From NCBI RefSeq assembly GCF_900143525.1, contig NZ_FREZ01000003.1:124001-188000 (forward strand): 64,000 nucleotides of DNA, read 5' to 3'. Under the pieces are notes generated by a model that saw only the letters and a program-made list of their open reading frames with translations, was not told the DNA's origin and did not search any database. The position numbers were made by a program, and so were the translations under genes. The DNA comes from Ruegeria sp. Alg231-54. GTDB lineage: Bacteria > Pseudomonadota > Alphaproteobacteria > Rhodobacterales > Rhodobacteraceae. Numbering within the stretch: the first letter of the stretch is position 1; every line of letters starts with the position of its first letter. Below are positions 45,372-61,201 of this stretch, one piece after another.

Positions 45372-45398
45372 AAAAAGGGCCGGTCAAATGACCGGCCC
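45372..45398 (-). terminator. Terminator at the end of the kinase/LysM operon
   Basis: On the minus strand a ten-base-pair perfect stem (GGGCCGGTCA / TGACCGGCCC, loop of two) is followed by five T residues. It lies 23 bases beyond the stop of the LysM-SBP gene at 45422. Together with the previous terminator it brackets about 135 bases that hold no gene I can support, only a short ATTCCC/GGGAAT inverted repeat at 45314-45333. Confidence 0.88.
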
Positions 45399-45421: not shown

Positions 45422-46528
45422 TCAGTTAGATGCTGCGTTCAGCTTTTCATTTTGTTCGCGAAGGGTGTCCGAGATAATCGCGTACCATTCGCCCGACTCA
45501 CGCATTTCGTTCAGGCCCTTGTTCATCATCGCGATATATTCGCGAGCAAACGGGTTGGTTCGGTGCGCAAGGAAGCTCATCGAGGACAAGGTCGAAACAT
45601 ATGGGTTTTCAACCAGATCAGACGAAGTCAGTCCCATGTCGTTCATGGTCGAAGCGAACAGATCGACCTCAAACGCGGCGACATCCGCCGTGCCGGTCAA
45701 AACAGCATCAAGACATTCGCGGGCCGAGTTGGGTTGGACCACAGTTGTGTTTTCGCGGTTCAATCCGACTTCTTCCAGAACAACCATGCTCCAGCCTGAC
45801 ATGCGGCAAATGGTAGAACCTACGAAGTCCTCGAATTTGGTCGCGCTGGCGTAGTCGCTTTCCGGCAATGTGAAGAAGCCGCCTACGATGTCGTATACAG
45901 GGACAGAAGCCACAAATTGCGTACAACGCGCTTCGGTTTCTGACGACCATTCGTATGTGCGGTTCGTACAATCCGGAACGGTCCATGCGATCGAAATATC
46001 GAACGCGCCAAGCGGCAACAATGTGTCCAGATGCGAGCTCCAGTCATCGACAAAACTGACCGAGTAGTCGCGGCTGTTGCCGGCACGTTGAAGACTGGTC
46101 GTAGCCAGACGGGTCATGATGCCGCCGCCGCCCAGTGCTTCACTGGTAAAGGGTTCCCAGCCGTTACCCGCAACCATTTTGATCGGCGGGGCATAGACAT
46201 TCGAACGCTTGACGCTTGCCGCGCGTTGCTCTTCCGCTGCGATCAGTTCCTGCGCGGACTGACCGTTCGGCAGGCTACCATCCTCACAGGGCAAGGCCAG
46301 AACCAGGCCTGGCTCAAGTGCGTTTGGGTTGGTGATGATGTTACGGTTCGCGTTAAAGATCGGCTGATAGTTCGACGTGCCGTATGCCGCGATCGCAATC
46401 GTCGCCATCGTGTCGCCGTCCGCAACTGTATAATTGGTACAAGCTTCTTGCGCAGCGGCGGCACCGGCGCTCAGAGCGGTGACGGCGGTGGCCGACAGTA
46501 CAACTTTCTTTAGGTTCAATTCAAACAT
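45422..46528 (-). CDS. Secreted LysM plus solute-binding-fold (SBP_bac_3-like) protein
   Basis: A 368-residue exported protein. The ATG at 46528 follows GGAGGAAGTGGAC; the in-frame GTG two codons earlier is less well placed. After a signal peptide ending near AGAAAAQEA comes a LysM-like domain (~25-80: NYTVADGDTMATIAI, later ALEPGLVLALPC) flanked by cysteines. Residues ~115-360 form a solute-binding fold (KMVAGNGWEPFTSEALGGGG, later GTADVAAFEVDLF). LysM domains bind peptidoglycan, so this is probably a wall-attached ligand sensor. It is paralogous to the protein encoded at 46574-47836. No permease is nearby. The ligand is unknown. Confidence 0.75.
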   Translation of the reverse strand: MFELNLKKVVLSATAVTALSAGAAAAQEACTNYTVADGDTMATIAIAAYGTSNYQPIFNANRNIITNPNALEPGLVLALPCEDGSLPNGQSAQELIAAEEQRAASVKRSNVYAPPIKMVAGNGWEPFTSEALGGGGIMTRLATTSLQRAGNSRDYSVSFVDDWSSHLDTLLPLGAFDISIAWTVPDCTNRTYEWSSETEARCTQFVASVPVYDIVGGFFTLPESDYASATKFEDFVGSTICRMSGWSMVVLEEVGLNRENTTVVQPNSARECLDAVLTGTADVAAFEVDLFASTMNDMGLTSSDLVENPYVSTLSSMSFLAHRTNPFAREYIAMMNKGLNEMRESGEWYAIISDTLREQNEKLNAASN

Positions 46529-46573
46529 GTCCACTTCCTCCAGACTTTTCTTTTAGTTAGGCCACATGGGGCC

Positions 46574-47836
46574 TTAGCCATTTTCCATTTGATGACGCAG
46601 AGCGGTTGAAACGATGTCTCGCCACTCTCCGGATTGCTGCATGATGTTCAAACCCTGATTGAGCGTCTCAAGGATCGCTTCCCCATCCGGATTATCTTTA
46701 TGGGTCATGACGTTAAGCGACTTGATCGCCGCCAGATTGGGGTTTTCTACAATACGGTGTTCGTACCCCAGCCGTCCGATTGCTTCGAAGGCCAGATGAG
46801 CTTCGATCGCGACGATATCGGCTGTCCCGTTCATAAGCGCGTGAAAGCAATCATCGGGTGAAACCGGGCGCATTAGCGAGATCGCCGGTGGGTACAGTCC
46901 GACCGCGTCCATGTGCGACAGCGACCAACCTTCGGGACGACAGATTGTTGTACCGGCGAAGTCCGCGTAGGTCAATGTTTGCTCATAGCCCGAGCCCTCG
47001 CGGGCAAAGAACGTGTCGACAACTTCATAGAACGGGTTAGAAAAGTTGTATGTATCGCACCGCGCGCGGTCTTTTTCAGAAAGCGTCTCGGCCTCTTCAC
47101 AGTTTGGACGCGACCAGGGGAAGGTGGCATCGAAAGCGAGTGTCGGCATCAGAAGATCCAGATGCGACGGCCAGTCGTTGACGAACTGGATCTTATAGGA
47201 CTGTTCGGGCGCGGCGCGCAGCATCGCTGTTTCGACAAGGTAGGTGTAGAGCCCGCGATTGGGCAGGGCCTCGTCGGTGAAAGGCGCATAATTACCGCCA
47301 GTGATAAGCAACAACTGACGGTCGCGGATTTCGGGGCGTTCGCCGGCGTCTGCGTTACGGATCAGCGCTGCGGCTTCTGCCCGCGCGGATTCGATCTCAT
47401 CCTTGGCAGCCGATTTTGCAGCGATCACCGCATCTTCGCTTGCCTTTTTGGCTTCGGCTTCGGCTTCGGCAACACGGGCTTCCGCCTCTGCGATGGCTTT
47501 CGCCGCGCGATTCTCGGCGGCCTTGACCAGCTCGGCTGCCATTTCGGCGGCCATGGCTTCGGCTTCAGTCTGCGGCGCGGTCGGTGCGCGCCCGATCTCT
47601 TCCAAACAAGGCATGGTCAGAACGTCGCCTACCCGAATGATGTTCGGATTGTTTCCGATCACGTCCCGGTTTGCATCGTAAATGATACGAAAGTCTTCGG
47701 TCGAATAAACTTCGATGGATAACTCGCGCAGGCTGTCGCCTCGTTGAATTTCGTAGGTTGAGCATGCCTGTTGTGCCGAGGCGGTACCCGCAGCGGCAGC
47801 AAGTGCCAGGCTTGATATGATCAGATGGTTTCTCAT
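46574..47836 (-). CDS. Secreted LysM, coiled-coil and solute-binding-fold protein
   Basis: A 420-residue exported paralogue of the previous protein. A signal peptide (ISSLALAAAAGTASA) is followed by a LysM domain (YEIQRGDSLRELSIEVYS, then NIIRVGDVLTMPC). An Ala/Glu/Lys-rich coiled coil at about residues 80-155 comes next, then a solute-binding fold (~160-415; RQLLLITGGNYAPFTDEALP, GTADIVAIEAHLAF). The coiled coil is absent from the shorter paralogue. The ATG at 47836 avoids overlap with the phosphatase gene, although its ribosome site is weak. It could dimerise and signal toward the transmembrane kinase encoded in the same block; that is inference from gene order. Confidence 0.75.
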   Translation of the reverse strand: MRNHLIISSLALAAAAGTASAQQACSTYEIQRGDSLRELSIEVYSTEDFRIIYDANRDVIGNNPNIIRVGDVLTMPCLEEIGRAPTAPQTEAEAMAAEMAAELVKAAENRAAKAIAEAEARVAEAEAEAKKASEDAVIAAKSAAKDEIESARAEAAALIRNADAGERPEIRDRQLLLITGGNYAPFTDEALPNRGLYTYLVETAMLRAAPEQSYKIQFVNDWPSHLDLLMPTLAFDATFPWSRPNCEEAETLSEKDRARCDTYNFSNPFYEVVDTFFAREGSGYEQTLTYADFAGTTICRPEGWSLSHMDAVGLYPPAISLMRPVSPDDCFHALMNGTADIVAIEAHLAFEAIGRLGYEHRIVENPNLAAIKSLNVMTHKDNPDGEAILETLNQGLNIMQQSGEWRDIVSTALRHQMENG

Positions 47837-47858
47837 GGGTCCTGTTGCTTTGCCTTGT

Positions 47859-48644
47859 TTAGTTTTTTGTAAGTTTGACAACACCGATTGAGATGTTGTC
47901 CTGATCTGGGTCGCCCTTAGCGTTCAGCGCGGCCTGCAGCGCCCCGGCTATGTCTTGTGCAAGCCCGCGGGCATTGGATTGAAGAATGGACTGAATTTCA
48001 GCGTTGCTGAGATATTGGAGGCCGTCGCTTCCCAGAACCAAAACATCCGAAGGTGTCAGGCCCAGCGGGGTTTCCGGGCAATCGACCTTTGGAATTGCCG
48101 CACCCATGATGACCGAAGTCAGTTGATTGCGGTCAGGATGCGCCAGGGCTTCGGCCTCGGTCAAAGTCCCTTCGGCCAATTGCGCATCAATCATAGGTGC
48201 CATCGAGTGATCTTCGTTGATCTGCGACAGCTCTCCGTCCCGGAACAGGTAAAGCGGGCTGTCGCCGATCGAAATCCAGAACAGCCGCTGGCCCAACAAC
48301 AAAGTGCCCAACATGGTTGAGCCCATGTTGAATCCAGTACCTTGTTCCTCGGAATAACCGGCAATGGATGCATTGGCTTGCATTGCCGCAAGGGGCAACG
48401 CGTCGATCAAAGCGGACTCGGGTGTCGTTGAACCTTCAAGCTCGGCATCTAACGCGTCACGCCAGGCCTGGATCACAAGGTCCGAGGCGACTTCACCTGC
48501 CGCATGCCCGCCCATGCCGTCAGCGACGACGACATAGCTTGCATTCGTCGCATCGAACATGCGCGAAGCAACCGCGTCCTCCTGCGTGTCACGCTGGCCC
48601 TTGTCCAGGATCAGCGCAATATCATATGCCGGTGTCGCCAGCAT
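47859..48644 (-). CDS. PP2C-family Ser/Thr protein phosphatase
   Basis: A 261-residue PP2C phosphatase with all metal-site motifs: RDTQEDA near residue 18, VADGMGGHAAGE near 40, SIGDSPLYL near 130, LGSDGLQYL near 203 and DNISIGV near the C-terminus. It is cytosolic, with no signal or membrane segment. It lies three bases after the FHA gene and 22 bases before the LysM gene, and belongs with the kinase at 49844-52006. The trio of kinase, phosphatase and FHA protein resembles the PpkA-PppA-Fha module. It should reverse the kinase. Confidence 0.93.
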   Translation of the reverse strand: MLATPAYDIALILDKGQRDTQEDAVASRMFDATNASYVVVADGMGGHAAGEVASDLVIQAWRDALDAELEGSTTPESALIDALPLAAMQANASIAGYSEEQGTGFNMGSTMLGTLLLGQRLFWISIGDSPLYLFRDGELSQINEDHSMAPMIDAQLAEGTLTEAEALAHPDRNQLTSVIMGAAIPKVDCPETPLGLTPSDVLVLGSDGLQYLSNAEIQSILQSNARGLAQDIAGALQAALNAKGDPDQDNISIGVVKLTKN

Positions 48645-48647
48645 CTA

Positions 48648-49637
48648 TTAGGAATCCCGCCAGTCAAAGCCGTCGTCACAGAAGGCGGCAAAGCGGACTG
48701 ATGTTTCGCTGATGCGGATCAGATCCCCGCTGGACAGTGGGACGGTGCTGAGAACCGGCTTGCCGTTCAGACGCACCAGGTTGGCCTTGCCGCCGTGTCC
48801 CAGATAACATTTGCGGTCCTCGGGGTCATAAGCAATCACCGCATGGTTGCTGCGGGAAATACCAGTGTCTCCAAAGTCGAGCTGAATGGCCTGATCGTCG
48901 TTGCGGCCAATCTGCATCAAGCCCTCGGTCAGCGTTACGCTCGCACCCCGGCCCGGACCACCAGTGATGACCAGCCAACCAACCGGGAAAGACTGTTCGG
49001 CATTGTCTGTCTTGGCTGCAGGTTCCGCTGTCTCGATGAGGTCCTGCACATGCGTGTCGGCGCGTTCGAAACCCAGGAAGGTTGTCTTGACGCGACCACG
49101 ACGATCTTCGGCAGCCGCGGGCTGCGGAACCGGGGCAACTTCAGCCAGTGGTTCTTCGGCGACCGGTGCTTCTGGCACCGGTTCTGCGGCGGGTTCGTCA
49201 GAGACTACCTCGATGATCTGTTCCGGCTCGGGTTCCTCGACTTCAAGTACCTCGTGTTCGACAACCTCTTCGACTTCTTCCTCAATTGCCGAGTGCAGCG
49301 TCAACACGGTTTCTTCTTCGAGCGCGGTTACTTCGTCTGCCACGTTCTGAACTTCTGCGATAACTTCAGCGACGACGACTTCATCTTCAGCCTCAGTTGC
49401 ATCTGCTACGTCTTCCTCAGAGAATTCCGGCATTTTCTCTTCGGGCACCAACTCATCGGCTTCTTCGTAGCTGTCCGAGGACATATTGCCGCCTGCCAGC
49501 GCTTCGCGCAGGGCATTGAAATCGGCGATTGGTTCGGCCTTTTCCGGCTCTGGCGCTACCGCTTCTTCGGCTTCGTTCTCTTTCGGTTTGCCGGCACCTT
49601 CGAGAAGCCGGCTAAGAGGGCTTTTGTATTTGAACAT
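48648..49637 (-). CDS. FHA-domain protein with long acidic linker
   Basis: A 329-residue cytosolic protein. Residues ~20-200 are low-complexity, rich in Glu, Val and Ala, and probably unfolded. Residues ~220-325 form an FHA domain that binds phosphothreonine, with the key residues in LMQIGRNDD (Gly-Arg), ISRSNHAVI (Ser and His) and LVRLNGKPV (Asn-Gly). Its N-terminus MFKYKSPLSRLLEG is short and basic. It is likely the reader of the phosphorylation made by the kinase and removed by the PP2C. The ATG at 49637 was chosen because upstream residues are not conserved in type. A gap of 206 bases separates it from the kinase gene. Confidence 0.88.
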   Translation of the reverse strand: MFKYKSPLSRLLEGAGKPKENEAEEAVAPEPEKAEPIADFNALREALAGGNMSSDSYEEADELVPEEKMPEFSEEDVADATEAEDEVVVAEVIAEVQNVADEVTALEEETVLTLHSAIEEEVEEVVEHEVLEVEEPEPEQIIEVVSDEPAAEPVPEAPVAEEPLAEVAPVPQPAAAEDRRGRVKTTFLGFERADTHVQDLIETAEPAAKTDNAEQSFPVGWLVITGGPGRGASVTLTEGLMQIGRNDDQAIQLDFGDTGISRSNHAVIAYDPEDRKCYLGHGGKANLVRLNGKPVLSTVPLSSGDLIRISETSVRFAAFCDDGFDWRDS

Positions 49638-49843
49638 GGTGTCGACACCTTTATTCCTTGGCACAGGACAATGGTCCTATGGGGCTGCTTCTTACCTCTG
49701 TGCGCGGTTGCACAACGGCACGGATATTTGTGACAACAAGGTCACTTTCTATTTCCGCGACGGGCCGGTTCCCGTCAGGGGTGCCGAATTTGGCGCTACC
49801 CTCAGCAAATACATACTGGCAGATCACATACGAACCGGTCAGA

Positions 49844-52006
49844 TCACTCCTGCGCTAATGGCATGTCAGCATCCGTCTCGACGCCATTGCGCAAAACGCT
49901 GAAACGGGCCTGCGGCTGGTCTTCGGAAACGAGTTTGGCCAACAAAACATCAAGGCTGTCCGAGCCATCAATGCCAGTGCCAGAAATTGTCTCTGAGACC
50001 AGGACATCCCCTTCCTGCAAGCTGCCTGATGCCTCTGGCGGAACCGAGCTTAGAACTGTTGTCCAACCCGCACCGTCTTTGTTCTGAATTGTGAAAACGT
50101 AGCCATTTTCCAAGCCGATCACGCGCATTGCGGGCAGTGCCAACAATCCGTTCTGAGGGCGGGTTTCACCCAATGTGCGATAGCGGGCAGAAACGCGGAT
50201 GTAGCCGTCCGGGTCCACATTCAGATCGTTCAACACCTGAGCAGCAAAAGTCGTATCTGCCTGCACTGGCTTGCCGTTCAGAGTGAAGATCGTGGCGCCG
50301 CGCGTGACCCACTCACCCACAATTGACGCGTCCATATCCTGGTCAACACCAGTTATCGCAATCACGTTGCCGGTCGAAGCCCGGCGGCGTGATGTCTGAA
50401 ACGGGATGTCTACGTCCCAGTGAGAGAATGCGATCTGTTGTTCTGCCAGATTTACCGGTTCCGCCGGAACAGGCGGCGTCGGCTCGACGGTCGCGGCTTC
50501 AGCCGTTTCCGTCGCCGCAGCTTCTTCCTGCTCCGTGACAACCGGATCTTCTTGCGCCTGCTCGACAGGCTCTGGAGTGGATGCGACCTCGGCCTGCGTG
50601 GTCTCAATTGGTTCTGATGCCGGCTCCACTTCGGCTGCGGTCACTTGTTCGACCGGGTCCTGCTCGGATGTTTCGACTGCGGCGGTTTCCTCCACCGTTT
50701 CCGTTACTACGGGCGCTTGCGTCGATGCGGTATCCTTGACCGGAGTTTCCTCTCCGGACATCAGAAAGAACCCGCCTGCCGCCAAAGCGGCGACCACGGC
50801 CACACCCGCAACAATTTTGCCTGCGCCATTGGATCCGCTTTTGACCACGGTATCCACCGCGACCGGAACTTCATCCTTCGCTGTGAACGTGGCGAGCCCG
50901 TCGTCGTTCTTGTCCTCATTGCCCAGGGCAATGTCAGTGTTTCCGGCAAGCAATGCGGTGACAACGGCTTCGGCGTTTTCGCTTTCAGCCTTGATCCTGG
51001 CTTTCTCTTCTTCTTCGTCTTTTTGGTCCATTGCCACGATCACCGACACCGGCCGATAGTCAAAGCTGTCGAACATAACGCCGGGGCCGCGGAACATGCG
51101 TAGCCAATCTAATGCAGTCTGAAGGCGATCCGTTGCGTGAACTTCCATTGCCTTGTCAATGGCTTCCAGGAACCCGTCGGGGTAACCTTCGAAACGCCCC
51201 GCCAGCGGTGTGTAGGGGTCCGTCTGACCGTTGTTGAATGCGTTCAGGCGGGTCTGACCGTCGATCGGACGTTCGCCGCTGATGGCGTGATACAGGGTCG
51301 CCGCAAGAACATAGAGGTCACTGCTTGGCCCTTGTTCCGCACCGCGTACATAAAACTCATGCGGCGAATAACCATCCTTGATAACCCGCAGGGTCATCAG
51401 CGCGGCGGACTGGTGCGCAGCCTGTTCGCGCGCGGCGCCAAAGTCGATCAGCACCGGATCACCATTTTCGTCGATCAGGATGTTGTCGGGCGAAATATCG
51501 CGGTGCAGCATGCCGCTTTGGTGGATGAAAGACACCGCCGACAGCATTTTTTCAGTGATCTGAACGATAAAGTCCGGACCAGCTTTGTTTTTGGAATCTT
51601 CAACATAGTCCAGCAGATCGCAGCCACGGATAAAATCCATCGCGATATAAGCGGTCTCGTTGTCTTCGAACACCTGATGAACATCGACGATATTGGGGTG
51701 TACCAAGCGAGCGTGATTGCGTGCTTCGAGGATAAACAAGTCGATGATTGCGCGCAGATCGTCCTTGTAGTCCGGCTCGACCGGTTCAACCATATCGCCG
51801 TTACGACGGCAAAGGGCACCGGGATAGCACTCTTTGATCACAACTTCGCGTTCCAGACTGTCCCGCGCAAGATAGGTGATCCCAAATCCGCCATTGCTGA
51901 TAAAGCGCAGGATCTCGTACTGCCCGCGCAGCAGCTTGGCGCCTGGTTGAAGACCTTCAATTTTCGGTTCGTCGTGCGTCGCGCCGACGGCCTGGTTGTG
52001 GCTCAT
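49844..52006 (-). CDS. Transmembrane Ser/Thr protein kinase with extracytoplasmic PDZ-like domain
   Basis: A 720-residue receptor-type kinase. Residues ~30-305 form the kinase with glycine loop SNGGFGITYLA (38-48), catalytic Lys58, HRDISPDN (168-175) and DFGAA (188-192), and a GYSPHEFY substrate loop. An acidic stretch precedes a single membrane segment at ~396-416. A Glu/Thr/Pro-rich linker (~420-520) follows, and then a C-terminal region of about 190 residues with PDZ-like sequence (for example ITGVDQDMDASIVGEWVTRG, then LSSVPPEASGSLQEGDVLV). With the kinase inside, the PDZ-like part is periplasmic and could meet the LysM proteins. The gene has its own 338-base upstream region. Confidence 0.9.
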   Translation of the reverse strand: MSHNQAVGATHDEPKIEGLQPGAKLLRGQYEILRFISNGGFGITYLARDSLEREVVIKECYPGALCRRNGDMVEPVEPDYKDDLRAIIDLFILEARNHARLVHPNIVDVHQVFEDNETAYIAMDFIRGCDLLDYVEDSKNKAGPDFIVQITEKMLSAVSFIHQSGMLHRDISPDNILIDENGDPVLIDFGAAREQAAHQSAALMTLRVIKDGYSPHEFYVRGAEQGPSSDLYVLAATLYHAISGERPIDGQTRLNAFNNGQTDPYTPLAGRFEGYPDGFLEAIDKAMEVHATDRLQTALDWLRMFRGPGVMFDSFDYRPVSVIVAMDQKDEEEEKARIKAESENAEAVVTALLAGNTDIALGNEDKNDDGLATFTAKDEVPVAVDTVVKSGSNGAGKIVAGVAVVAALAAGGFFLMSGEETPVKDTASTQAPVVTETVEETAAVETSEQDPVEQVTAAEVEPASEPIETTQAEVASTPEPVEQAQEDPVVTEQEEAAATETAEAATVEPTPPVPAEPVNLAEQQIAFSHWDVDIPFQTSRRRASTGNVIAITGVDQDMDASIVGEWVTRGATIFTLNGKPVQADTTFAAQVLNDLNVDPDGYIRVSARYRTLGETRPQNGLLALPAMRVIGLENGYVFTIQNKDGAGWTTVLSSVPPEASGSLQEGDVLVSETISGTGIDGSDSLDVLLAKLVSEDQPQARFSVLRNGVETDADMPLAQE

Positions 52007-52344
52007 TTCTTTCCGCCCGTTCTAATCGTTTTGCGGCTTACTTAACTGGGCTTTCAGCCCGCGAACTCACAACCAAACACAACCGCAGGACACTCATGTA
52101 CGTTAGACGTTTCAAATTTGACTTTATTGGGGCCGCCCGATGGCTTCACTAAGAACCCAGCGCAAAGAAAATCTATATATCGTGTTCTTTCCCATGAGAA
52201 AATCTAAATGTAGATTTTCTAGCGGCAATACTTGCGGACTGAGTGCCTGTTTTTTGCGGATTGGTCACTAAATCCGAAACAATAAGCGCGCGATTCTGAG
52301 GGCTTCGAATCGCTGCATTGCGGCTCAATTAAAACGGGTAGGCG
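52007..52344 (-). promoter_or_regulatory. Control region upstream of the kinase gene
   Basis: These 338 bases hold no supported gene. They are A/T rich and carry three copies of the ten-base word AGAAAATCTA (see the separate repeat entry). No clear terminator with a T-run follows the dynamin gene that ends at 52345. The kinase start is preceded by GGGCGGAAAGAA. A promoter for the kinase-FHA-PP2C-LysM genes is expected here, but I cannot fix its boxes. Confidence 0.5.
52166..52220. repeat. Three copies of AGAAAATCTA, two direct and one inverted
   Basis: The exact ten-base word occurs at 52166-52175 and 52197-52206 in the same orientation, 31 bases apart start to start (about three helical turns). 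It occurs again as its reverse complement at 52211-52220, forming a perfect ten-base-pair inverted repeat with a four-base AATG gap. This is either a regulator binding array or a hairpin. It lies 160-215 bases upstream of the kinase start. Confidence 0.75.
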
Positions 52345-53631
52345 TCAAGTTCCGGTTTTTGCCTGAACTGAATCGACGCGGCTGCCGGCCCAGGCGAGGT
52401 TGTCGCTGAGCTGGGCGAGGATGCTGATCGCGTCCTTCAGTGGCGCGTCACCGCTTTCGAATTGCAGCAGCAAAAGAAGATCAGTGGCCTTTTCAAACTC
52501 ACCGGGAATCCAGTCGGCTTCAGTGGCGATTTCGCCGCCTTGCTCCAGACGCTCTGCAAAATCTTCGACGATTTCCTGACAGCTGTTCAGGAACGCGGCG
52601 GGTTCAATATCCGATGTCTCGCGCAAGTCGTCATAGATGCTAGCAATTGCCGCCAGCCAGTCTTCAAGGATCGGGTTTTCAAGCGGGGGAAGGGCGGATT
52701 CCAGCGTCGCATGAATTGAGGGGGCTTCGACCTGCGCTGGTTCAGCTTCTGCGATGTTCAGGCTGGCCAGAAACGGAAGAAACTCCTGCTCGATGTCATT
52801 TTGGGCAGCTTCCAAATCCTTCAAACGCCGCTCAGATGCGACTTGCAGGACCTGTTCGGCCAGATTTTGACCGCCACAGGTCTCCCACAAATCAAAATCA
52901 GGCTCGGGTTCTTGCGCCATAGCCTTGACGGCGACCGGTGTGCCAATGGGCACGACAGACCGGAAGAATTTACCTTTTTCTTTTTCCAACCGGTGCAGAA
53001 CACGGTCCAGCGCGTCCCGAACCGGGGGGAGATCCGCGTGGGTTACGGCCAGCAAACTGTTCGAGCGCAACTCTTGCGGAACTTGTGCCCACAGGTGGCG
53101 CTCAGTCTCACGCCAGGCATTGGTTCCGTTCGTGCACCAGATGGCACAATCGACATAGGATAATAGGTCCAGAGTGGACTTGTAGGTGTCATCCAGTGCG
53201 CCGGTTCCCGGCAGATCGAATAATGAGATCTCTTGCAGGGCAGGGGTATTCAACCCAACCGAGATAAAATCAGGGTTATCAGCCGCGGCTTTTTCCAGCG
53301 CAATGCCGGAATAGACTTTGGGCTCTTTGTCCCACCAGCCAACCGTGGTTTCCGGTGCGTCCGCATAGGCCACGATGACCAATGGCAGTTTCAGATGCTG
53401 CGGACCCGTGGGCAGAATGTCCGCCCCGGCTAGCATGTTTGCGAGGCTGGATTTCCCGGCCCCGAATTCCCCGGCAAAACCGATATTGACCGCATTCGAA
53501 AGCCGTTCGGCATGGAACAAGGCGCGCTCGCGCATCTTGTCCAGACCGGCCTCTGATGGCAGGTTTTCGGTGGCGGTCAGGAAGCGTTCAAGCTTGCGTA
53601 CTTCCTGTTCGGTTCCGGGAAATTCAATCAT
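52345..53631 (-). CDS. Dynamin-like small GTPase, paired with the gene at 53628-55670
   Basis: A 428-residue GTPase of the dynamin/Era-like P-loop class: P-loop GEFGAGKSS (54-62), switch region LPTGPQHLKLPLV, DLPGTG (139-144) and THAD (197-200) in the NKxD position. It shares the unusual motif WCTNGTNAWRETER (165-178) with the GTPase at 57055-58773. The C-terminal half (~270-428) is helical and unrecognised. Its ATG overlaps the stop of the preceding large dynamin by four bases, so the two are co-translated and probably work as a pair. No membrane segment is seen. Biological role unknown. Confidence 0.8.
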   Translation of the reverse strand: MIEFPGTEQEVRKLERFLTATENLPSEAGLDKMRERALFHAERLSNAVNIGFAGEFGAGKSSLANMLAGADILPTGPQHLKLPLVIVAYADAPETTVGWWDKEPKVYSGIALEKAAADNPDFISVGLNTPALQEISLFDLPGTGALDDTYKSTLDLLSYVDCAIWCTNGTNAWRETERHLWAQVPQELRSNSLLAVTHADLPPVRDALDRVLHRLEKEKGKFFRSVVPIGTPVAVKAMAQEPEPDFDLWETCGGQNLAEQVLQVASERRLKDLEAAQNDIEQEFLPFLASLNIAEAEPAQVEAPSIHATLESALPPLENPILEDWLAAIASIYDDLRETSDIEPAAFLNSCQEIVEDFAERLEQGGEIATEADWIPGEFEKATDLLLLLQFESGDAPLKDAISILAQLSDNLAWAGSRVDSVQAKTGT

Positions 53632-55670
53632 TCCGCAGCCTCTGCTAATTTCTTGTCGGCGCTATTGCCGCCGAATACCGCATCCAGATCATCTGCGACA
53701 CGTTGCGCCTGATCGAATGCTGCCTGTGCTTCTGCACGAACATTGGTTTGGCCGGTTCCGACCCGTTGTTCAAGATGTCCAGCCAACAATGCCAGATAAT
53801 GGTCAAGAACGGTGTTCAGACGCTCAAGCAGATCGGCGCGCGCCGTGTCCACCAGATCGTCCCCGATCATTTCGAATTCCTGAACGATCATCCGCTCGGC
53901 CCGAGCGACCACACTTTTGCGCGAAATCAGCCGGGACAACCAGCTGACGCGCAATTCCACGGTGATGCCCCGGGTAAGTGCCGTGGTATCAGGACGGAAC
54001 CATCGAACTGCACTGGTGTTCATCCGGCTATCGGCCGGGTCCTGCCAGCCGGGCAGGGCGCGAAGCGCGGCATTGCTGTTCATGTCGACGGCGTAAAGTT
54101 CGCTGAGCATTCGCTGCCGCACCACCTGTGTTGCACCCTGAACCAGCTCGCGCATGCGATCCCGCAGCGGTGAAAAGTTCAATTCAGTGTCACCTCCCTT
54201 GGCCAACAAAGGGGAATCGCCATTCGGTCCGCGGACAACGGCGGAGACGGCTTCGGATACAGTGTCATCCATGACGCCGCGAAGATTGGCCAACACATCA
54301 TCCATATCGTCAATAATCTGTGTGGTTTTTTGCGAAACCAGCGCGCGCAGCTCGGCCAATGTTTTGTCGTTTTCGTCGCCGTCGGTCACGTCGGCGGAGT
54401 TTTCGTCGTCAATTACGCGCAGATGGGCCTTGGACCGTTCCAGCTCACCTTGCGCAAAACTGTTAAGGTGCTGCCAGGCCATCTTGAGCTGTTCGTCACG
54501 GGGCCCTTGGGTCAAGGCGTGCGTAACGTGGCGGCGCAGATCGGGCAGACCAGAGGCGATCATTGCGGCAAAGCGCAAAACGCCCTCACGGCTGATTGGG
54601 CCGGGGCCCTGTTTTATCTCTTCTACTCCGTCCAGATATTGCTTCATCTGCTCAGGATGGGCGCGCAGCCAAGCCAGAACATGATCGTGGTTCACGCCGG
54701 TATCGTCACCGGTCAAGGCATAGTGGGCCCATTGGGCACTACCCATCAGGACATCAATGTCCGAATTGCCCAGGGCTTTTTCCAGGCCATCCAAAACGTC
54801 GGCTCTGACTTTTCCGGCATCCTCGGCCCCACCACCCAACTCGTCCACACGGTTGATGAAAACAACAATCTGTCCCAGTTCCAACGCCTGCATCAGGCGG
54901 AACAGCTTCAAGTCCGCCCGCGACAAGGCCTGATGCGCGGACAATACAACAACAAAGAAATCGGATTCCTTGAGGTATTGGCGCGAGATTTCCTCGCGGA
55001 TCAGCAGCGGGTCGTTGACGCCCGGCGTGTCCGTGACCGTCAGCGGGAACGGAAAATGGCCAATGTCAAAGTAGACCTCGGCCTTGCGCGTGATGTCACT
55101 GTACAGTCCCCGATCTGAACCGGGGTCGTATTCTTCGCTGTCGGTCGGATCGTCACCCGCACAAACATAACGGGCCAGATCGTCCGAGTTCAGCTGCTCC
55201 AGATCGTGATGCTGACCCAGCAACTGCTCATAGCTGTCGCCCAATCGCAGTTGGGCGCGGGTTTTCATCGCGTCGACCTGCTCTTCAATCATCTCGCGCT
55301 TATAGCTGTCCTCGTCATCGGGGAACATGTTGCGCAGCTCTTCGCCCTCGGCGATCAGAGCTTGCCACTGACGGTTATCGAAGAAATGAAATTCGGCCCC
55401 TTGGGTTCGACCCGAGGGGTGACCGAAATGCATATCGGTGATCACGGTCGTCCACGGATTAACATCCGAGGGCAGGTATTCGGCCTGCCCCGTAAACCCG
55501 TTGATAAGGCGGGACTTGCCAGCCTTGATCTGCCCGACAAATGCAATTGACGGTTTCAGATTTGATAGATCGCCTACAATGCGTGAAATAAACTGGCGGG
55601 TCTCGTCGTTGCTGACCCCGTTCATGTCTTCGGCGATTCGAATTAACTCACGACGGTTATTTTCACTCAT
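53628..55670 (-). CDS. Dynamin-family large GTPase (second copy)
   Basis: A 680-residue bacterial dynamin-like protein. The GTPase has GQIKAGKS (46-53), the G2-type LPSDVNPWTTVIT (66-78), DTPGVND (214-220) and NRVDEL (273-278). A long helical part follows, including a basic-aromatic stretch SWLSRLISRKS near residue 576 that could insert into a membrane. It is a clear paralogue of the protein encoded at 58782-60794, sharing DVNPWT and RYVC motifs. The start at 55670 (MSENNRREL) was preferred over 55697. It is coupled to the small GTPase downstream. Such proteins remodel or guard membranes; the specific role is unknown. Confidence 0.85.
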   Translation of the reverse strand: MSENNRRELIRIAEDMNGVSNDETRQFISRIVGDLSNLKPSIAFVGQIKAGKSRLINGFTGQAEYLPSDVNPWTTVITDMHFGHPSGRTQGAEFHFFDNRQWQALIAEGEELRNMFPDDEDSYKREMIEEQVDAMKTRAQLRLGDSYEQLLGQHHDLEQLNSDDLARYVCAGDDPTDSEEYDPGSDRGLYSDITRKAEVYFDIGHFPFPLTVTDTPGVNDPLLIREEISRQYLKESDFFVVVLSAHQALSRADLKLFRLMQALELGQIVVFINRVDELGGGAEDAGKVRADVLDGLEKALGNSDIDVLMGSAQWAHYALTGDDTGVNHDHVLAWLRAHPEQMKQYLDGVEEIKQGPGPISREGVLRFAAMIASGLPDLRRHVTHALTQGPRDEQLKMAWQHLNSFAQGELERSKAHLRVIDDENSADVTDGDENDKTLAELRALVSQKTTQIIDDMDDVLANLRGVMDDTVSEAVSAVVRGPNGDSPLLAKGGDTELNFSPLRDRMRELVQGATQVVRQRMLSELYAVDMNSNAALRALPGWQDPADSRMNTSAVRWFRPDTTALTRGITVELRVSWLSRLISRKSVVARAERMIVQEFEMIGDDLVDTARADLLERLNTVLDHYLALLAGHLEQRVGTGQTNVRAEAQAAFDQAQRVADDLDAVFGGNSADKKLAEAAE

Positions 55671-55736
55671 ACTGTTACCCTGGGTACTTGCAATCACAGA
55701 TTGAATTAGTCGAAAAATTGAATATTACGGGCGCGC

Positions 55737-56597
55737 TCATTCGGAACGCTCCGTCAGAGATGTCCACAGATTCACAATGGCGCCTAGCTTGCGCGCCTCG
55801 TGAACGACCATGGAGAATTCCTTGCCGTCATTCAGGACGGCCAAACCAGAACCTTTACCGCCGGACGGACGCATGACGATCAGTTGCGGATGATCCAGCG
55901 CGGCGGCAGCGTCATCATCCCAGCCCGACAGGTCACGTGCGAACTGCGCCAGCAAAGTTTCATCTGCATGTAATGGCTGACCTTCACTACAATCGCCGTC
56001 AGACTGAACCATTTCCCCGCCTTCAGCTTTGACCTGGATGCGACCAACAGCCAAACGCTGGCTGCCGAGATAGAACTGGTTGGCCAAATCGCTGGCATCG
56101 TCTGTTGGTGCCGCGTCATTTGCGGGCTCGGCAGTGTCCGGAACGACCGCTATGACGGGTTCAGCTGGCATTGCGATCATCGTGCAAGCACTAGCGATTT
56201 CGCTAAAAGTGATTCCGACATCGTCCGCTTCCAGCGTGGCGTCCGGCCGCAGAGATATCAGGCTGAGCGGTGCAGGCGCGACGGCAATATCGGTTACCAG
56301 CTGCGCCAATTGACCCGCCAGCGTATCGCGCTCTTCGGTTTCAAAATCAGGCGCAACGCCGGACCGGACACGAAAGACATCAGTAACCCGAGAGCTGTTG
56401 ACCTCGATCGCGAGACAATCGCCATTGGCAGCCGTAAACTCCAACCGACGCGGCAAAACAGTGCCACGGATGGACTGCAATACCTTTTCGCGACGCTCAA
56501 GCGCAGTGTCACCAGCAAGCGCGACGGCTGGTTCCAGCCGCGCGACCGATGATCGCCCAATGTCCTCGAGCAAATCGAGTATGTTTGTATCCATCAT
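55737..56597 (-). CDS. Unrecognised two-domain cytosolic protein between the GTPase pairs
   Basis: A 286-residue protein of no family I recognise. The start ATG at 56597 is preceded by GAGGGGG at good spacing. Residues ~1-135 look like a mixed alpha/beta domain (LPRRLEFTAANGDCLAIEVN). A disordered Ala/Pro/Asp linker (~140-170) follows, then a second domain (~175-286) ending MVVHEARKLGAIVNLWTSL. No signal peptide or membrane segment is visible. It lies between the Roadblock-like gene (23-base gap) and the second dynamin gene, so it is probably a partner or regulator of the GTPases. That is inference from position only. Confidence 0.7.
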   Translation of the reverse strand: MMDTNILDLLEDIGRSSVARLEPAVALAGDTALERREKVLQSIRGTVLPRRLEFTAANGDCLAIEVNSSRVTDVFRVRSGVAPDFETEERDTLAGQLAQLVTDIAVAPAPLSLISLRPDATLEADDVGITFSEIASACTMIAMPAEPVIAVVPDTAEPANDAAPTDDASDLANQFYLGSQRLAVGRIQVKAEGGEMVQSDGDCSEGQPLHADETLLAQFARDLSGWDDDAAAALDHPQLIVMRPSGGKGSGLAVLNDGKEFSMVVHEARKLGAIVNLWTSLTERSE

Positions 56598-56620
56598 GCC
56601 GTGACCCCCTCTGGTCCCGT

Positions 56621-57022
56621 CTAAACTGCGGCCGCGACGGGCCCCAGACTGAGATGCGATTTTGTCAGTGCCAACCCTACATTCGCGCTGTTGCGACAGA
56701 TGTAGCAGACCACATGATCCGGATAGGCCTGCGTCCGCAAGAAAATGTTCAACCGATCCTTTGAAAACACCGCGATTTCCCCAAATCCCGGATTTTCGGT
56801 ATCAGCATTACCCGATTTCCGCAGCAATGCTTCAAAAGCACCCACGCCGCCGCCCTGAAACAGGTTCGCCACTGCAAGCGCGAGACTGTCCAGCACTTCG
56901 GCGTCCTCTTGATCGCGGACACTGGTCCCCAATAACATCCCTGTTTCCATGTCGATATACCCGGCTGCGACGCAGTCGGGTATCGTTTCCATCGCAGATT
57001 TCAGTGCGGCTTCGATAGACAT
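56621..57022 (-). CDS. Roadblock/LC7-like small protein
   Basis: A 133-residue protein whose layout fits the Roadblock/LC7 fold: an N-terminal helix ending in a Pro-Asp-Cys turn, a strand pair (AAGYIDMETGMLLGTSV), a long middle helix (EVLDSLALAVANLFQGGG), strands EIAVFSKDRLNIFLRTQ and HVVCYICRNSANVGLAL, and a final helix. Roadblock proteins such as MglB are partners or activators of small GTPases, so its place inside a GTPase operon is suggestive. The assignment is by fold pattern, not by a strict motif. A profilin-like or other alpha/beta protein is the alternative. Confidence 0.6.
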   Translation of the reverse strand: MSIEAALKSAMETIPDCVAAGYIDMETGMLLGTSVRDQEDAEVLDSLALAVANLFQGGGVGAFEALLRKSGNADTENPGFGEIAVFSKDRLNIFLRTQAYPDHVVCYICRNSANVGLALTKSHLSLGPVAAAV

Positions 57023-57054
57023 CGGGCTTCCCGTCCTTCTACCTTGGTTTCACG

Positions 57055-58773
57055 TTATAAAACATGCCATTCAGCCCCGCCCTTGTTCCCGGCTTTCGGA
57101 AGCGTTGAAACGTCTTTTTTCGCGTCGCGAGCGCCGTGTTCAGCGGCGATCTTGTCGAACTCTTCCAGGAAGGCCACAAAAACCTTTTTCAGGCCTTCCG
57201 GGTCTTCGGGAAGATCCTCACCAGCGGTGATCTCGCACCACATCGCCGATGCGCTGAGTGTTGATCCGGCGTCCGCATTCAGCAATTTCTCTAAGGATTC
57301 AGCCTCGGGCCCTGTCTCGGACGTTCCGTTTGACATAGGCACGACCTGTGTTTCGATCAGGCCGTTGGATTCGGGTTCCAGTTCGAACTCATCGGCTGCA
57401 CCATCCGATTGCTCGGCGAGCAATGCAACGATTGACGACACAGATGTGTCAGCGCATTGTGCGTCTGCTTCGGGGTTTTCGGATACAGTATCTTCAGCTG
57501 CGTCAGCCAGCTTATCCTCGATCGACGCCAACAGGTGATCCTGACCATCGGAGGCGGTGTCAGACTGATTAGCCTCGCCTTCACCCTCGGCTTCCAGTTC
57601 CAAGGTCTCTTCTTCGTCGAAATCCTCGTCATCCAGTTCAAGAAACGCGTTTTCTTCCGAAGGGATCTCGGCAACATCGGCCAAATTCAGAGGCTGACTG
57701 GGCGTTTCCCGGAAAAAAGAGCGCAATTCATCCTGATCGGTTTCAGGAGTGGTCTCTTCCGAGATCGCGGTCATTTCAGCCCGCAACCGTTCGGCCTCGT
57801 CTGCGTCAATGCGGGGTGCGCGTTCAGTATCGCCTGAGCGTGCCTCGACCCGGGCAGGACGGACCGGAAAGCTCGTTACGACTTCGTCCTGCAGAATTTC
57901 GCCCTGAACGGGATCGACCAGCTTTAGCGGGGCAGGCTGCTCTGCGCTCTCGGCGGGTTTGCGTGGACGGACAGGTTGCACACTGGGCATATGAGCAAGG
58001 CTGTTGTCGATCTGGTAACGCGCCAGCATGTCTGCCCGGTTGTCCATGATCTGTTCGGTGATCTCAAGAAAGCTGTCCACCATCTTGCCGCCGCCACTGC
58101 GTCCCCACAGTTCGGCATCACCGCTCTTGTCACGTGCGGTAATCGCATCGCGGGCCGAGAACAAAATCGACCGATTGAACAGATGCCCTGCCTCGCGGTT
58201 GACCCGGCGCAACACCTTCTGGCGGTCCTTCGCGCCCAGTGTATCCGCGCGGGTGACCAACAACAGCGAGTTGTGTTGCAACCGCTCCGGCAGCGCGACC
58301 CATGTCGCCCGTTCGGTCTCGCGCCAGGCCTGGGTAGAGTGTGTGCACCACAGCACCCCATTGGCCTGACCCACGGCGCGACGCCAGACATCAGTTGAAA
58401 TCTTGGGGTCCGAGATGCCGGGCGTATCGATCAGATCGACCGCCTCGAGAATGTCGGACTCAAGGAAAATACGCACGAATTGGGCGTCGTTGACGCCGAC
58501 AGACTCCAAGGCATCCAATTCGATGTTTTCGCGTGTGCCGTCATGGCGCTGCACATACGCAGATTTCTTGCCCCAGCTGAACCAGACGGGCGGCAACTGC
58601 GTGGCAGTCACCTGAGTCGGCAGCGTGTGCGACCGAAGCAGAAAGTTGATCAGCGTGGATTTGCCGGCGCTGAACTCTCCCATAAGCGCAAAGATCGGCT
58701 TGCGGCGGGACCACTGCTCAATGCGTTCCCATGCCTTGGGCGAGACGAAACGGGTTTGTGAGTCTTTTGCCAT
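57055..58773 (-). CDS. Dynamin-like GTPase with long acidic tail, paired with the gene at 58782-60794
   Basis: A 572-residue GTPase: P-loop GEFSAGKST (32-40), LPTQVTATQLPPV switch, DTPG (116-119) and TRAD (174-177). It shares WCTHSTQAWRETER (142-155) with the GTPase at 52345-53631 and so is its paralogue. Residues ~265-480 form a long, very acidic, probably disordered region with a Thr-rich EETTPETDQ (339-347) that could be a phosphorylation site. A C-terminal segment near 500-555 is helical (KVFVAFLEEFDKIAAEHG). It follows the large dynamin gene by 8 bases. No family with a known role is recognised. Confidence 0.8.
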   Translation of the reverse strand: MAKDSQTRFVSPKAWERIEQWSRRKPIFALMGEFSAGKSTLINFLLRSHTLPTQVTATQLPPVWFSWGKKSAYVQRHDGTRENIELDALESVGVNDAQFVRIFLESDILEAVDLIDTPGISDPKISTDVWRRAVGQANGVLWCTHSTQAWRETERATWVALPERLQHNSLLLVTRADTLGAKDRQKVLRRVNREAGHLFNRSILFSARDAITARDKSGDAELWGRSGGGKMVDSFLEITEQIMDNRADMLARYQIDNSLAHMPSVQPVRPRKPAESAEQPAPLKLVDPVQGEILQDEVVTSFPVRPARVEARSGDTERAPRIDADEAERLRAEMTAISEETTPETDQDELRSFFRETPSQPLNLADVAEIPSEENAFLELDDEDFDEEETLELEAEGEGEANQSDTASDGQDHLLASIEDKLADAAEDTVSENPEADAQCADTSVSSIVALLAEQSDGAADEFELEPESNGLIETQVVPMSNGTSETGPEAESLEKLLNADAGSTLSASAMWCEITAGEDLPEDPEGLKKVFVAFLEEFDKIAAEHGARDAKKDVSTLPKAGNKGGAEWHVL

Positions 58774-58781
58774 ATCGCTAC

Positions 58782-60794
58782 TTATGCTGCCTCGTTACTA
58801 AGATCTTTCAGGATGTCGCCCAGAATATCGTCACGCGATTTCTGTGGTGTCAGCCCTGCCATCAGAGCTGCGTTGCGGCTTGGATCACCCTCGGCCGAAG
58901 CCGAAATGCTAAGCAACGTCTCTTTCTGCTCGCGCATGAAATCCGACAGGATCGCCCGCACGTTTTCCAACACGGCTGCAACCTGATTTTCCTCGATATC
59001 CTTGGTGATCGAATTCGCCTCGGACGCGATCAGGCGCGTGTAGTCGGCTGCATAGGCTTCGAACCCTTTGCGGCGCTGCCACCAGCGACGCCACCAGGTG
59101 CTTTGCAAGTCCAATGCGATTGTTCGCCCAATACCGAGTGGGGGTGGGACACGTGGAACAATGGGCGCTTCGATACTGAACTCACCCAAGTGGTTGCCCA
59201 GTATCTTCTGATACAGCGTCTCAATATCTGCGGCCGCCGTATTGTACAGCGCACCTGCTTCTTTGCGCATCGACCGCGCAAAGCTGAAATACGCGGCCTT
59301 TTGCAAGGTCCGCAGACCCGCCGGGTCATACTGCCACGTGCCTTGTTCGCCGTTCCGTTCAAGGTGGGCAATCAGCGAATCCGTTGCTCGTTTGACAAAG
59401 TTGGTTTCCGCTGAATTCAGTCTCTCCAACACCTTCGCACGTAAGGATGCGGTCAGTTCAGCTACGTTCTTTTCGTATTGATCCGAGAGTGTGGCAATCG
59501 CGTCCTCTGGCGATACACCATCCAGATCACGCACAAGACCTTCGCCGCCTGAAAGGGTCTTGGCAACGGCCGTGGCGCGGATTTGGCTGGCTATGTTGCG
59601 GGCGCGGTGGCGGACGCGATCCAGCAAACGGGTGCCTGCGCCTTCGGCGATGCGCTCGTTCATGGCCAACAGCAAATCGGGCAAGCCTGACAGTGCCCAG
59701 ATCTTGTCGAGCGAGGGTGCCTGATCACCAAAACCAGCAGCCAGATAGAACGTGTTCAACGCCTCGCGCGATTCATCGGACAGAATCTCGGGGTTGCCCG
59801 TCAACGCGGCTTCGGCCCACAATGCGCTGCCAAAGACAACGCTGGTACTGGCATCGATATTGTTCTGCTTGAGCGTGTCCTGGATACGGTCACGGATTTC
59901 CGGGACCTGATTGACCGGATCAGCCAGTTCGTCAATTCGGTTCACAAACAGGATGATCTGCCGGTTCTCAAACTGGGCAATAATCCGCATCAGCGCCATG
60001 TCCATCGTTGTAAGCGCCTGGCTGGCAGCCAGAACAACAACGCAGACCTCAGATCCGCGCAAGCTTCGCAGGGTGATCTGCTCGCGGACCATGAATGTAT
60101 CGTTTACGCCTGGCGTGTCGCACAGTTTGAGCGCAATCGGGTATTGCGGGATGTCCATATACAACTCTGCCGACTTCGTTACATCGGCGAACCGCCCGGT
60201 CTTGGGGTTGATGTCCGGGTCATCTTCGTCGCCCAGACAGACATAGCGCTGGATCAGCTCTTCGTCGAAGTAATCATATTGATGGCTCTGCCCCAGAATC
60301 AGGTCGAAATGCTGGCCCAATCTGGATTCGGATTTAGCCTTCATCTCGCCGATCTGGCGACGAATGTCATCCATCTCGTCATCGGCGCCGGCGCGATTTG
60401 CCAGCTCACCCAGACGGCCGCCGCCGACCATCAGGTTGTCCCATTCTTCTTGTTCAAAGAAAGTAAACTTGGCGCGTTTGTCGCCTTCGGTACGGGTGTT
60501 GATGTTCAACGTGGTCACCACCGATGTCCACGGGTTCACATCCGATGGCAGCAGGGCGGGGCGCCCGGCTAGGATGTTCACGATCGAAGACTTGCCGGCC
60601 TTGACCTGCCCGACCATCGTAACGCTGGCCGAGAAATTCTCCATCCGCGTCTTCAGCGTGGCAAGGCGGGCGGACGAGCGCGCATCCGCCACCTCTGTCA
60701 ATTGATCAATCTGTGCGGTCAGCGAGTTCATCGCTGACGTCATGGGCGTCAGTGCCTCATTGCCAACTGATAAAAGATGGTCGTTGCGCGCCAT
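58782..60794 (-). CDS. Dynamin-family large GTPase (first copy)
   Basis: A 670-residue dynamin-like GTPase: GQVKAGKSS (62-70), LPSDVNPWTSVVT (82-94), DTPGVND (226-232) and NRIDEL (285-290), then a long helical stalk-like part. Near residue 566 the stretch TWWRRWWQRRKGF is rich in Trp and Arg and looks like a membrane-contact paddle. The same place in the paralogue at 53628-55670 reads WLSRLISRK. It is cytosolic with no true membrane segment. It starts two bases after the upstream gene and heads the first GTPase pair. By family it should bend or tether membranes after GTP binding. The cellular target is unknown. Confidence 0.86.
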   Translation of the reverse strand: MARNDHLLSVGNEALTPMTSAMNSLTAQIDQLTEVADARSSARLATLKTRMENFSASVTMVGQVKAGKSSIVNILAGRPALLPSDVNPWTSVVTTLNINTRTEGDKRAKFTFFEQEEWDNLMVGGGRLGELANRAGADDEMDDIRRQIGEMKAKSESRLGQHFDLILGQSHQYDYFDEELIQRYVCLGDEDDPDINPKTGRFADVTKSAELYMDIPQYPIALKLCDTPGVNDTFMVREQITLRSLRGSEVCVVVLAASQALTTMDMALMRIIAQFENRQIILFVNRIDELADPVNQVPEIRDRIQDTLKQNNIDASTSVVFGSALWAEAALTGNPEILSDESREALNTFYLAAGFGDQAPSLDKIWALSGLPDLLLAMNERIAEGAGTRLLDRVRHRARNIASQIRATAVAKTLSGGEGLVRDLDGVSPEDAIATLSDQYEKNVAELTASLRAKVLERLNSAETNFVKRATDSLIAHLERNGEQGTWQYDPAGLRTLQKAAYFSFARSMRKEAGALYNTAAADIETLYQKILGNHLGEFSIEAPIVPRVPPPLGIGRTIALDLQSTWWRRWWQRRKGFEAYAADYTRLIASEANSITKDIEENQVAAVLENVRAILSDFMREQKETLLSISASAEGDPSRNAALMAGLTPQKSRDDILGDILKDLSNEAA

Positions 60795-60796
60795 GT

Positions 60797-61201
60797 TCAG
60801 CCTCCGGTTCCTGTCGCGGCCAACGTGTCTGTTGGCGTGCTGGTCATGGTGTCGATTCGGGCGATCAGATTCAGCGCATTGCCCAGGATAGCGGCTTCGG
60901 CACCCGGCGAAATCGACTCAAACGTGTGGCAATCCGCCAAAACTTCGATCGAGCTGAAGCGCTCGCTGTTTTCAAGGCGGGCAAGGCGGCGTCCGGTCGG
61001 AAAACCCTCGGATTTGGTTTCGGGCAGCGGCATACGCGAGTTTGCAAGCAAGTACCGCCGCCCCGAGCGCGTACGCAACGAGACGCCAAACCCGGTGTTT
61101 GGATGGTCTCGATTCAGGGATTTGAGTTCGCCAAGAAAACTTTCACGCGCAAGACCAACGGCTTCTTGCTCGGCAGCTGCGGAGTTCATCATATTGGTCA
61201 C
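60797..61201 (-). CDS. Unrecognised small protein, first in the GTPase operon
   Basis: A 134-residue protein I do not recognise. The likely start is GTG at 61201 (an ATG three codons in is the alternative); an AGGG lies nine bases upstream. It is mixed alpha/beta with SGRRYLLANSRMPLP in the middle and a helical C-terminus, and has no signal or membrane segment. It starts four bases inside a short upstream reading frame and ends two bases before the large dynamin gene, so it is probably translated with it. A role as GTPase partner is inference only. Confidence 0.65.
   Translation of the reverse strand: MTNMMNSAAAEQEAVGLARESFLGELKSLNRDHPNTGFGVSLRTRSGRRYLLANSRMPLPETKSEGFPTGRRLARLENSERFSSIEVLADCHTFESISPGAEAAILGNALNLIARIDTMTSTPTDTLAATGTGG

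Follow-up and report, generated by a model that had tools for sequence, protein, structure and literature searches.

A Ruegeria locus that combines paired dynamin-like GTPases with two predicted Roadblock-fold proteins and a kinase/PP2C/FHA trio

The 64,000-nucleotide stretch of Ruegeria sp. Alg231-54 analysed here (assembly GCF_900143525.1, contig NZ_FREZ01000003.1, positions 124,001 to 188,000 of the forward strand; hereafter the window, whose own numbering is used throughout) contains, at 45422-61201, a block of twelve genes in which paired dynamin-like GTPases stand next to two predicted Roadblock-fold proteins and to a Ser/Thr kinase, an FHA protein and a PP2C phosphatase. All twelve open reading frames (ORFs) were confirmed to be open and all lie on the minus strand, where the gene order, from 61201 down to 45422, is Y134, dynL1, dynS1, RB, X286, dynL2, dynS2, STK, FHA, PP2C, LysM2 and LysM1. 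A preliminary description, made from the sequence alone, had reported such a one-strand block and its genes, and in this it was borne out. The tight spacing that it also reported holds for most of the block, where neighbouring genes are separated by -26 to +39 nucleotides (nt), but not for the intervals between dynS2 and the kinase gene (338 nt) and between the kinase and FHA genes (179 nt); the block may be transcribed in more than one unit. A terminator-like hairpin (45377-45398, read 45398 to 45377 on the minus strand; 9 pairs, 8 of them GC, with T5) lies directly 3' of the last gene, and terminator-like matches over the region are at chance level (20 found vs. 19.6 expected). A promoter scan was uninformative, giving 4 matches, below the 7.9 expected from shuffled sequences.

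The four GTPases are encoded as two pairs, each made of a large and a small protein, with a gap of 8 nt between dynL1 (58782-60794, 670 residues) and dynS1 (57055-58773, 572 residues, with a long acidic tail) and an overlap of 4 nt between dynL2 (53628-55697, 689 residues from a GTG, with an ATG at codon 10) and dynS2 (52345-53631, 428 residues). Dynamin_N matched all four above the Pfam cut-off (E values of 4e-11, 1.6e-9, 4e-13 and 1.6e-9, respectively), and G1, G3 and G4-like motifs are readable in each, so that the two large and two small dynamins with G motifs of the preliminary description stand. The best relatives by sequence in the PDB are the Campylobacter dynamin-like proteins (Cj-DLP; 5owv) and Nostoc BDLP (2j68). 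All four lack both a strong hydrophobic segment (the highest average over 19 residues is 1.71) and a signal-peptide-like start. DynL1 carries at about 567-575 a Trp-rich stretch, WWxxWWxRR, whose residues W567, W568 and W572 are invariant in an alignment of 15 sequences; this is only suggestive of a candidate membrane-binding patch.

RB (56621-57022, 133 residues) and X286 (55737-56597) follow the first dynamin pair. Neither gave a Pfam match at E<=10, Robl_LC7 (PF03259) included, nor did a PDB sequence search with X286 or with a profile of 22 RB relatives find a Roadblock protein; Robl_LC7 had no match in the host genome at 0.01. The Roadblock fold is evident only from structure search. The RB model, built from 26 sequences, has a predicted local distance difference test score (pLDDT) of 90.9, and its best PDB structure matches are MglB and other Roadblock/LC7 proteins (Foldseek E 4e-7); when superposed along its whole length on Myxococcus xanthus MglB it gave a Z score of 15.9 and a root-mean-square deviation (rmsd) of 2.1 over 117 residues. 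By this prediction RB is a true Roadblock fold, in line with the Roadblock-like protein of the preliminary description. X286 was modelled as two domains (pLDDT 86.0, predicted template modelling score 0.54), the C-terminal one of which (about 166-286) matches MglB with a Z of 9.8 and an rmsd of 3.3 over 106 residues, and also matches Ragulator subunits; in such comparisons a Z below 8 may stem from an arrangement that is common, and profilins score up to 7.9. The X286 C-terminal domain is thus, as modelled, a second Roadblock fold, which the preliminary description had missed, and the locus has two adjacent Roadblock-fold genes. An Arf-family search for an MglA-like partner in the host genome was not decisive: it matched frames of 347 and 839 residues, too long for a single-domain GTPase, and was confined to this one of the small-GTPase models.

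The kinase (STK, 49844-52006; Pkinase E 8e-29) shows the VVIK, HRD and DFG motifs by direct reading and has a single hydrophobic segment (about 398-416) and a putatively periplasmic C-terminal region. Its best NCBIfam match is PknB_PASTA (2e-39, below the cut-off), and there is no PASTA domain among its Pfam matches. To us the C-terminal region looks like paired PDZ-like domains; a search against the PDB returned nothing credible for it (best E 0.11). The FHA protein (48648-49664, 338 residues) has an acidic N-terminal half and an FHA domain at 251-318 (E 3e-8), and the Ser/Thr phosphatase (47859-48644, 261 residues) matches PP2C_2 (E 6e-13) as well as the Stp1-type family (1.4e-40, below the cut-off). 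The kinase with its single hydrophobic segment, the PP2C and the FHA protein that had been named earlier passed the Pfam cut-offs.

Of the two exported LysM and solute-binding proteins of the preliminary description, what stood is a signal-peptide-like start and weak matches in each, all of them below the Pfam and NCBIfam cut-offs. LysM2 (46574-47884), whose true start is likely the ATG at codon 18, has a LysM-like part (PRK11198 LysM part, 8e-6), an Ala/Glu-rich segment and a part similar to solute-binding proteins (SBP) of family 3 (SBP_bac_3, 8e-4), while LysM1 (45422-46534) has a LysM-like part (LysM 0.021; PRK11198 2e-10) and an SBP family 3-like part (0.051); the NCBIfam LysM matches are partial. 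Another single LysM/SBP-like gene is found in the host genome, on contig C26 at about 84065-85108; the 20 kb read there contain neither a dynamin nor a kinase of this type.

Within the genus the block is stable. DynL1 is full-length and free of internal stops in 37/37 genomes, host genome counted, and the twelve genes occur in the same order in all nine other genus genomes that were read gene by gene (L102-L108, L110, L111), in a tenth, where the sequence at hand stops within LysM1 (L248), and, by the depositors' names and positions, on an annotated plasmid. The intact dynL1 and the conserved order indicate that the block is not a chance assembly. One Ruegeria genome carries, on a different contig, an additional dynL1-dynS1 pair (L109, L264), with RB, X286 and the trio not in view.

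In order to follow the linkage further, 199 Rhodobacteraceae genomes from 198 genera were searched. DynL1 matched in 49 of these; three weak cases (G112, G152 and G205; best E 3e-8 to 7e-4) were dropped, and the neighbours of dynL1 were read in all the remaining 46, one of which (G227) carries only a dynL2-like relative. The FHA and/or PP2C gene adjoins dynL1 in 34 of the 46. The machine tally had been 32/45, as it missed two genomes whose operon was retrieved as two pieces (G153 and G180; L128, L136) and omitted G227. Where the upstream side of a linked locus is in view, the kinase accompanies FHA/PP2C in 25 of 26 genomes, G215 being the exception. The preliminary description took the genes to be one system and regarded homologous loci that rarely keep the GTPase and kinase halves together as the result that would speak against this; the 34/46 of the family survey supports one system. 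RB was detected in 39/199 genomes, all among the 46 with dynL1 (hypergeometric p 1e-34, kinship ignored), and X in 37, all among those 39. RB is present in 34/34 genomes with a linked trio vs. 5/12 of the others, again with kinship ignored.

The commonest form of the locus is STK-FHA-PP2C-dynS-dynL1-dynS1-RB-X, with LysM genes not in view and a varied order in G111. In a dynL1 tree the 31 rows of the common form make up one clade (support 100/99), Ruegeria and Actibacterium belong to another, and trio-free lineages lie between them; either the trio joined the dynamins on two occasions or it was lost repeatedly. Eighty named loci, the best-scoring of 502 confirmed ones, have Ruegeria strains as the closest relatives and include 13 rows of the Ruegeria-type clade (100/99), and in 12 of these 13 the kinase half is adjacent. 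It is placed downstream in Ruegeria, Roseovarius albus, Aliiroseovarius and Frigidibacter, divergently in Actibacterium and L195, convergently in Defluviimonas and upstream in Roseovarius aestuarii; in Roseovarius albus (L171) and L195 the kinase alone is in view. This linkage, kept through rearrangement, is the best evidence that the two halves share a function.

The LysM genes follow the type of kinase. Kinases with a Ruegeria-type C-terminal region (score at least 88) have LysM genes next to them in all eight genus-level loci in which the place is in view (Ruegeria, Actibacterium, Frigidibacter, Defluviimonas, Roseovarius aestuarii, G188, G175 and G215), as compared to 0/20 sampled loci with common-form kinases (score up to 33; p 3e-7). 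In 16 of these 20 loci the kinase domain is not followed by a hydrophobic segment, and in four (L092, L120, L123, L129) it is; G175 holds both kinds of kinase (L125, L222). At three loci (L221-L223) the LysM-kinase module is found with no dynamin nearby, and most of the other LysM/SBP loci read have neither this type of kinase nor a dynamin. Because the common form has no LysM in view and LysM-kinase modules occur away from dynamins, the LysM pair is outside the core and is an exchangeable add-on input that tracks the periplasmic domain of the kinase. The earlier proposal of LysM sensors that signal to the dynamins is not supported as a general rule, given that the commonest form has neither LysM genes in view nor, in 16 of 20 loci, a membrane segment in its kinase.

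In the class sample the dynL1 profile matched at 1e-20 in 2/387 genomes, both Rhodobacteraceae, and in the phylum sample at 1e-15 in 16/397, 15 of them in this family; the remaining one (G887) has a dynL-dynS pair with no RB or trio in 20 kb. The order sample, in which RB but not dynL1 was searched, gave RB in 65/196 genomes, all Rhodobacteraceae. Relatives of the locus occur on 18 plasmid records (Leisingera 12, Ruegeria 5, Rhodobacter 1): the five Ruegeria records are large plasmids of 0.39-0.81 Mb, and a Leisingera plasmid of 33 kb bears the eight-gene common form, with RB and X included. A plasmid of Rhodobacter sp. CZR27 (L242:817-11267) has four consecutive dynamin genes, and after them come genes for a histidine kinase, for a protein with DUF6781 and for a member of the AarF/UbiB family. 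No match to the locus was found in phage records, none of the 21 pattern matches of a viral-contig scan is a relative, and PHROG has no family for the seven proteins scanned (the dynamins, RB, X286 and Y134). On these negatives a phage origin of the block was rejected. Y134 (60797-61201, 134 residues), the first gene of the block, has no assigned family and is present in only some relatives; just upstream of it lies a plus-strand tRNA-Leu gene (61980-62064), a possible integration site. Some relatives (L114-L116) have a second dynamin module, consisting of RB, X, dynL2 and dynS2, close to a gene for a ferredoxin/FAD-reductase protein that in L114 has a globin-like part. An ABC-type ATPase gene precedes dynL2 of this module in L114 and L115, and in L115 a DSP-type phosphatase is nearby, so that a phosphatase is again found near Roadblock and dynamin genes.

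That one locus holds dynamins together with a Roadblock pair and with a kinase/PP2C/FHA switch suggests that dynamin assembly or GTP hydrolysis is controlled by phosphorylation. The explanation that we favour, and consider somewhat probable, is a phosphorylation-gated, Roadblock-regulated heteromeric dynamin machine at the inner membrane. Bacterial dynamin pairs tether membranes as heteromers (PMC6104087); dynL1 and dynS1, and in Ruegeria also dynL2 and dynS2, would likewise assemble into heteromers at the cytoplasmic side of the inner membrane, which they would tether, fuse or remodel. MglB is reported to be the GTPase-activating protein of a Ras-like GTPase (PMC2907295). RB and the X286 C-terminal domain may make up a platform, either dimeric or heterodimeric, that attaches to the G domains of the dynamins and sets their GTP cycle, as MglB does with the small GTPase MglA. 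The kinase would phosphorylate a component of the dynamin complex or the FHA protein; the latter would read phosphothreonine and so switch or recruit the dynamins, and the PP2C would reset the system. In the Ruegeria-type branch the membrane-spanning kinase would take a wall signal through the LysM/SBP-like exported proteins, and in the commonest branch the mostly soluble-looking kinase would sense something intracellular. The envelope is a plausible site of action and, by analogy, the output could be membrane repair, phage tolerance or vesicle release. A bolder and more tentative reading, to which we give rather less than even credence, is that of a new class of regulated dynamin system, in which the RB and X286 pair would set the GTP cycle of a heteromeric dynamin, a Hanks-type kinase/PP2C/FHA set would act as the gate, and the inputs (wall LysM/SBP or a cytosolic kinase) would be interchangeable.

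Several observations weigh against the regulated dynamin machine. In 12 of the 46 genomes no trio adjoins dynL1 (G063, G064, G074, G104, G107, G125, G185, G195, G227, G236, G237 and G245; in G195 an FHA-dynS-RB-X set lies on another contig, L244, and in G063 RB-X alone lies elsewhere, L243), and seven of the twelve also have no RB, which means that a bare dynamin pair exists without regulators. As all rows of the common form fall in one clade, many of the 34 linkages go back to a single origin and the counts are not independent; the LysM-linked kinases, too, are one clade. Within the 13-row Ruegeria-type clade there is a metagenome-assembled genome (L186) in which the 10 kb to each side hold no trio. 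The kinases of L209 and L210 (scores 25-27) combine a membrane segment with a divergent periplasmic region, and LysM is not in view there. The third dynamin of the common form, dynS (e.g., L078:2051-3334), often keeps the P-loop without a canonical DxPG and is only weakly similar to Ruegeria dynS2; among 114 'dynS2' matches, duplicates included, 38 have G1 alone and nine have none of the three motifs. On these grounds the common-form dynS may be neither an ortholog of dynS2 nor a working GTPase, and is perhaps a regulatory pseudo-GTPase.

Among the other explanations, an anti-phage system, in which the kinase or the LysM side would sense infection and the dynamins would seal or block the membrane in the way Bacillus DynA acts against lysis, seems to us unlikely, even if the patchy presence (46/199 genomes) and the carriage on 18 plasmid records, among them the 33-kb Leisingera plasmid with its eight-gene unit, speak for it. 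DynA is reported to confer phage resistance (PMC8844932). The kinase matches PADLOC kinase models (2e-43), but 36 families were matched, and such models match kinases generally. At E<=1e-10, 80 proteins from the flanks of the locus fell into two PADLOC families and 80 controls into six, with one member each and five of the six control families being ZorB models; each set is the first 80 of a random 125, from 355 flank and 206 control ORFs that were picked by length and are in part spurious. The flanks do not resemble a defence island, and such a context was rejected. The locus is present in 37/37 genus genomes, unlike most defence genes, and the phage and viral-contig searches yielded no relative. 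A machine for vesicle release of the LeoABC kind, which the kinase would run according to the state of the wall, is less likely still. It would fit the pairing of the dynamins and a weak, partial similarity to LeoA/LeoBC (best 4e-11), and loss of leoA, leoB or both lowers vesicle cargo to about half (PMC4159319); no Leo-type split gene is present in the locus, however, and the lack of strong hydrophobic segments and signal-peptide-like starts would place the four dynamins on the cytoplasmic side. The last point is a weak one, as LeoA also has no obvious signal and yet was found in the periplasm, by the same source.

That the dynamin and LysM-kinase genes are two unrelated operons which merely adjoin in Ruegeria is suggested by the 338-nt gap between them, by the LysM-kinase modules with no dynamin in view and by dynamin pairs with no kinase in view (Rubellimicrobium and others). 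We judge it quite improbable, because the halves adjoin in 34/46 genomes and remain together across several rearrangements in a single clade. Control of type VI secretion by a trio of the PpkA/PppA/Fha type is far less probable than any of these: although the activities of the trio are the same as those of the type VI threonine phosphorylation pathway, the locus contains no type VI gene, VipB was unmatched in the host genome and absent from 19 of the 28 dynL1 genomes searched (host included), and in the nine with VipB this gene is on a different contig from dynL1 or over 150 kb away from it. For the Ruegeria host genome the link was thus rejected, unless a type VI system without a recognisable VipB is present, and the trio is tied to the dynamins, as the preliminary description had maintained.

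As far as we know, a regulator has been identified for few bacterial dynamins, and the locus offers candidates in the kinase, the phosphatase, the phospho-reader and the two Roadblock-fold proteins; it makes the on/off switching of a bacterial dynamin testable in culturable marine strains. If the regulated dynamin machine is real, Roadblock control would extend from small Ras-like GTPases to dynamins. On the bolder reading, we would know of no earlier dynamin under Roadblock control, and the system would be a bacterial parallel to the Roadblock platforms by which GTPases are controlled on membranes of eukaryotes. The parts belong to known families; the combination of genes and the Roadblock-dynamin pairing appear undescribed, in line with the preliminary description, and a literature search that reached few subscription papers found no published match.

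Like the bacterial dynamin pairs of Campylobacter (Cj-DLP1/2), Nostoc (BDLP1), Bacillus (DynA) and E. coli (LeoABC), the locus encodes side-by-side Dynamin_N GTPases with G motifs; for those proteins, however, the accessible parts of the sources describe no kinase, phosphatase, FHA or Roadblock partners. LeoABC consists of LeoA and a dynamin-like protein split into LeoB and LeoC, whereas the Ruegeria locus has no split gene and its matches to these proteins are partial and weak. RB and the X286 C-terminal domain resemble MglB and the Roadblock/LC7 proteins of the MglA-MglB polarity switch, the Streptomyces conservons and Ragulator. Unlike MglA-MglB, the locus has no small Ras-like GTPase, the dynamins appear to be the partners, and the sequences are too distant for Pfam Robl_LC7. 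A Streptomyces conservon is made of the CvnA kinase, the CvnB Roadblock protein, the CvnC DUF protein and the CvnD small GTPase, and neither a histidine kinase nor a small Ras-like GTPase is among the twelve Ruegeria genes. In the type VI threonine phosphorylation pathway PpkA, PppA and Fha are a membrane Ser/Thr kinase, a PP2C phosphatase and an FHA protein; the same three are encoded together in Ruegeria, with the difference that their neighbours are dynamins and that neither the locus nor, judged by VipB, the host genome has a type VI system. Finally, the kinase and the PP2C recall PknB/Stp pairs in their best, below-cut-off NCBIfam matches (PknB_PASTA and Stp1-type), but in place of a PASTA match the kinase has a different C-terminal region, which is coupled to LysM/SBP-like exported proteins.

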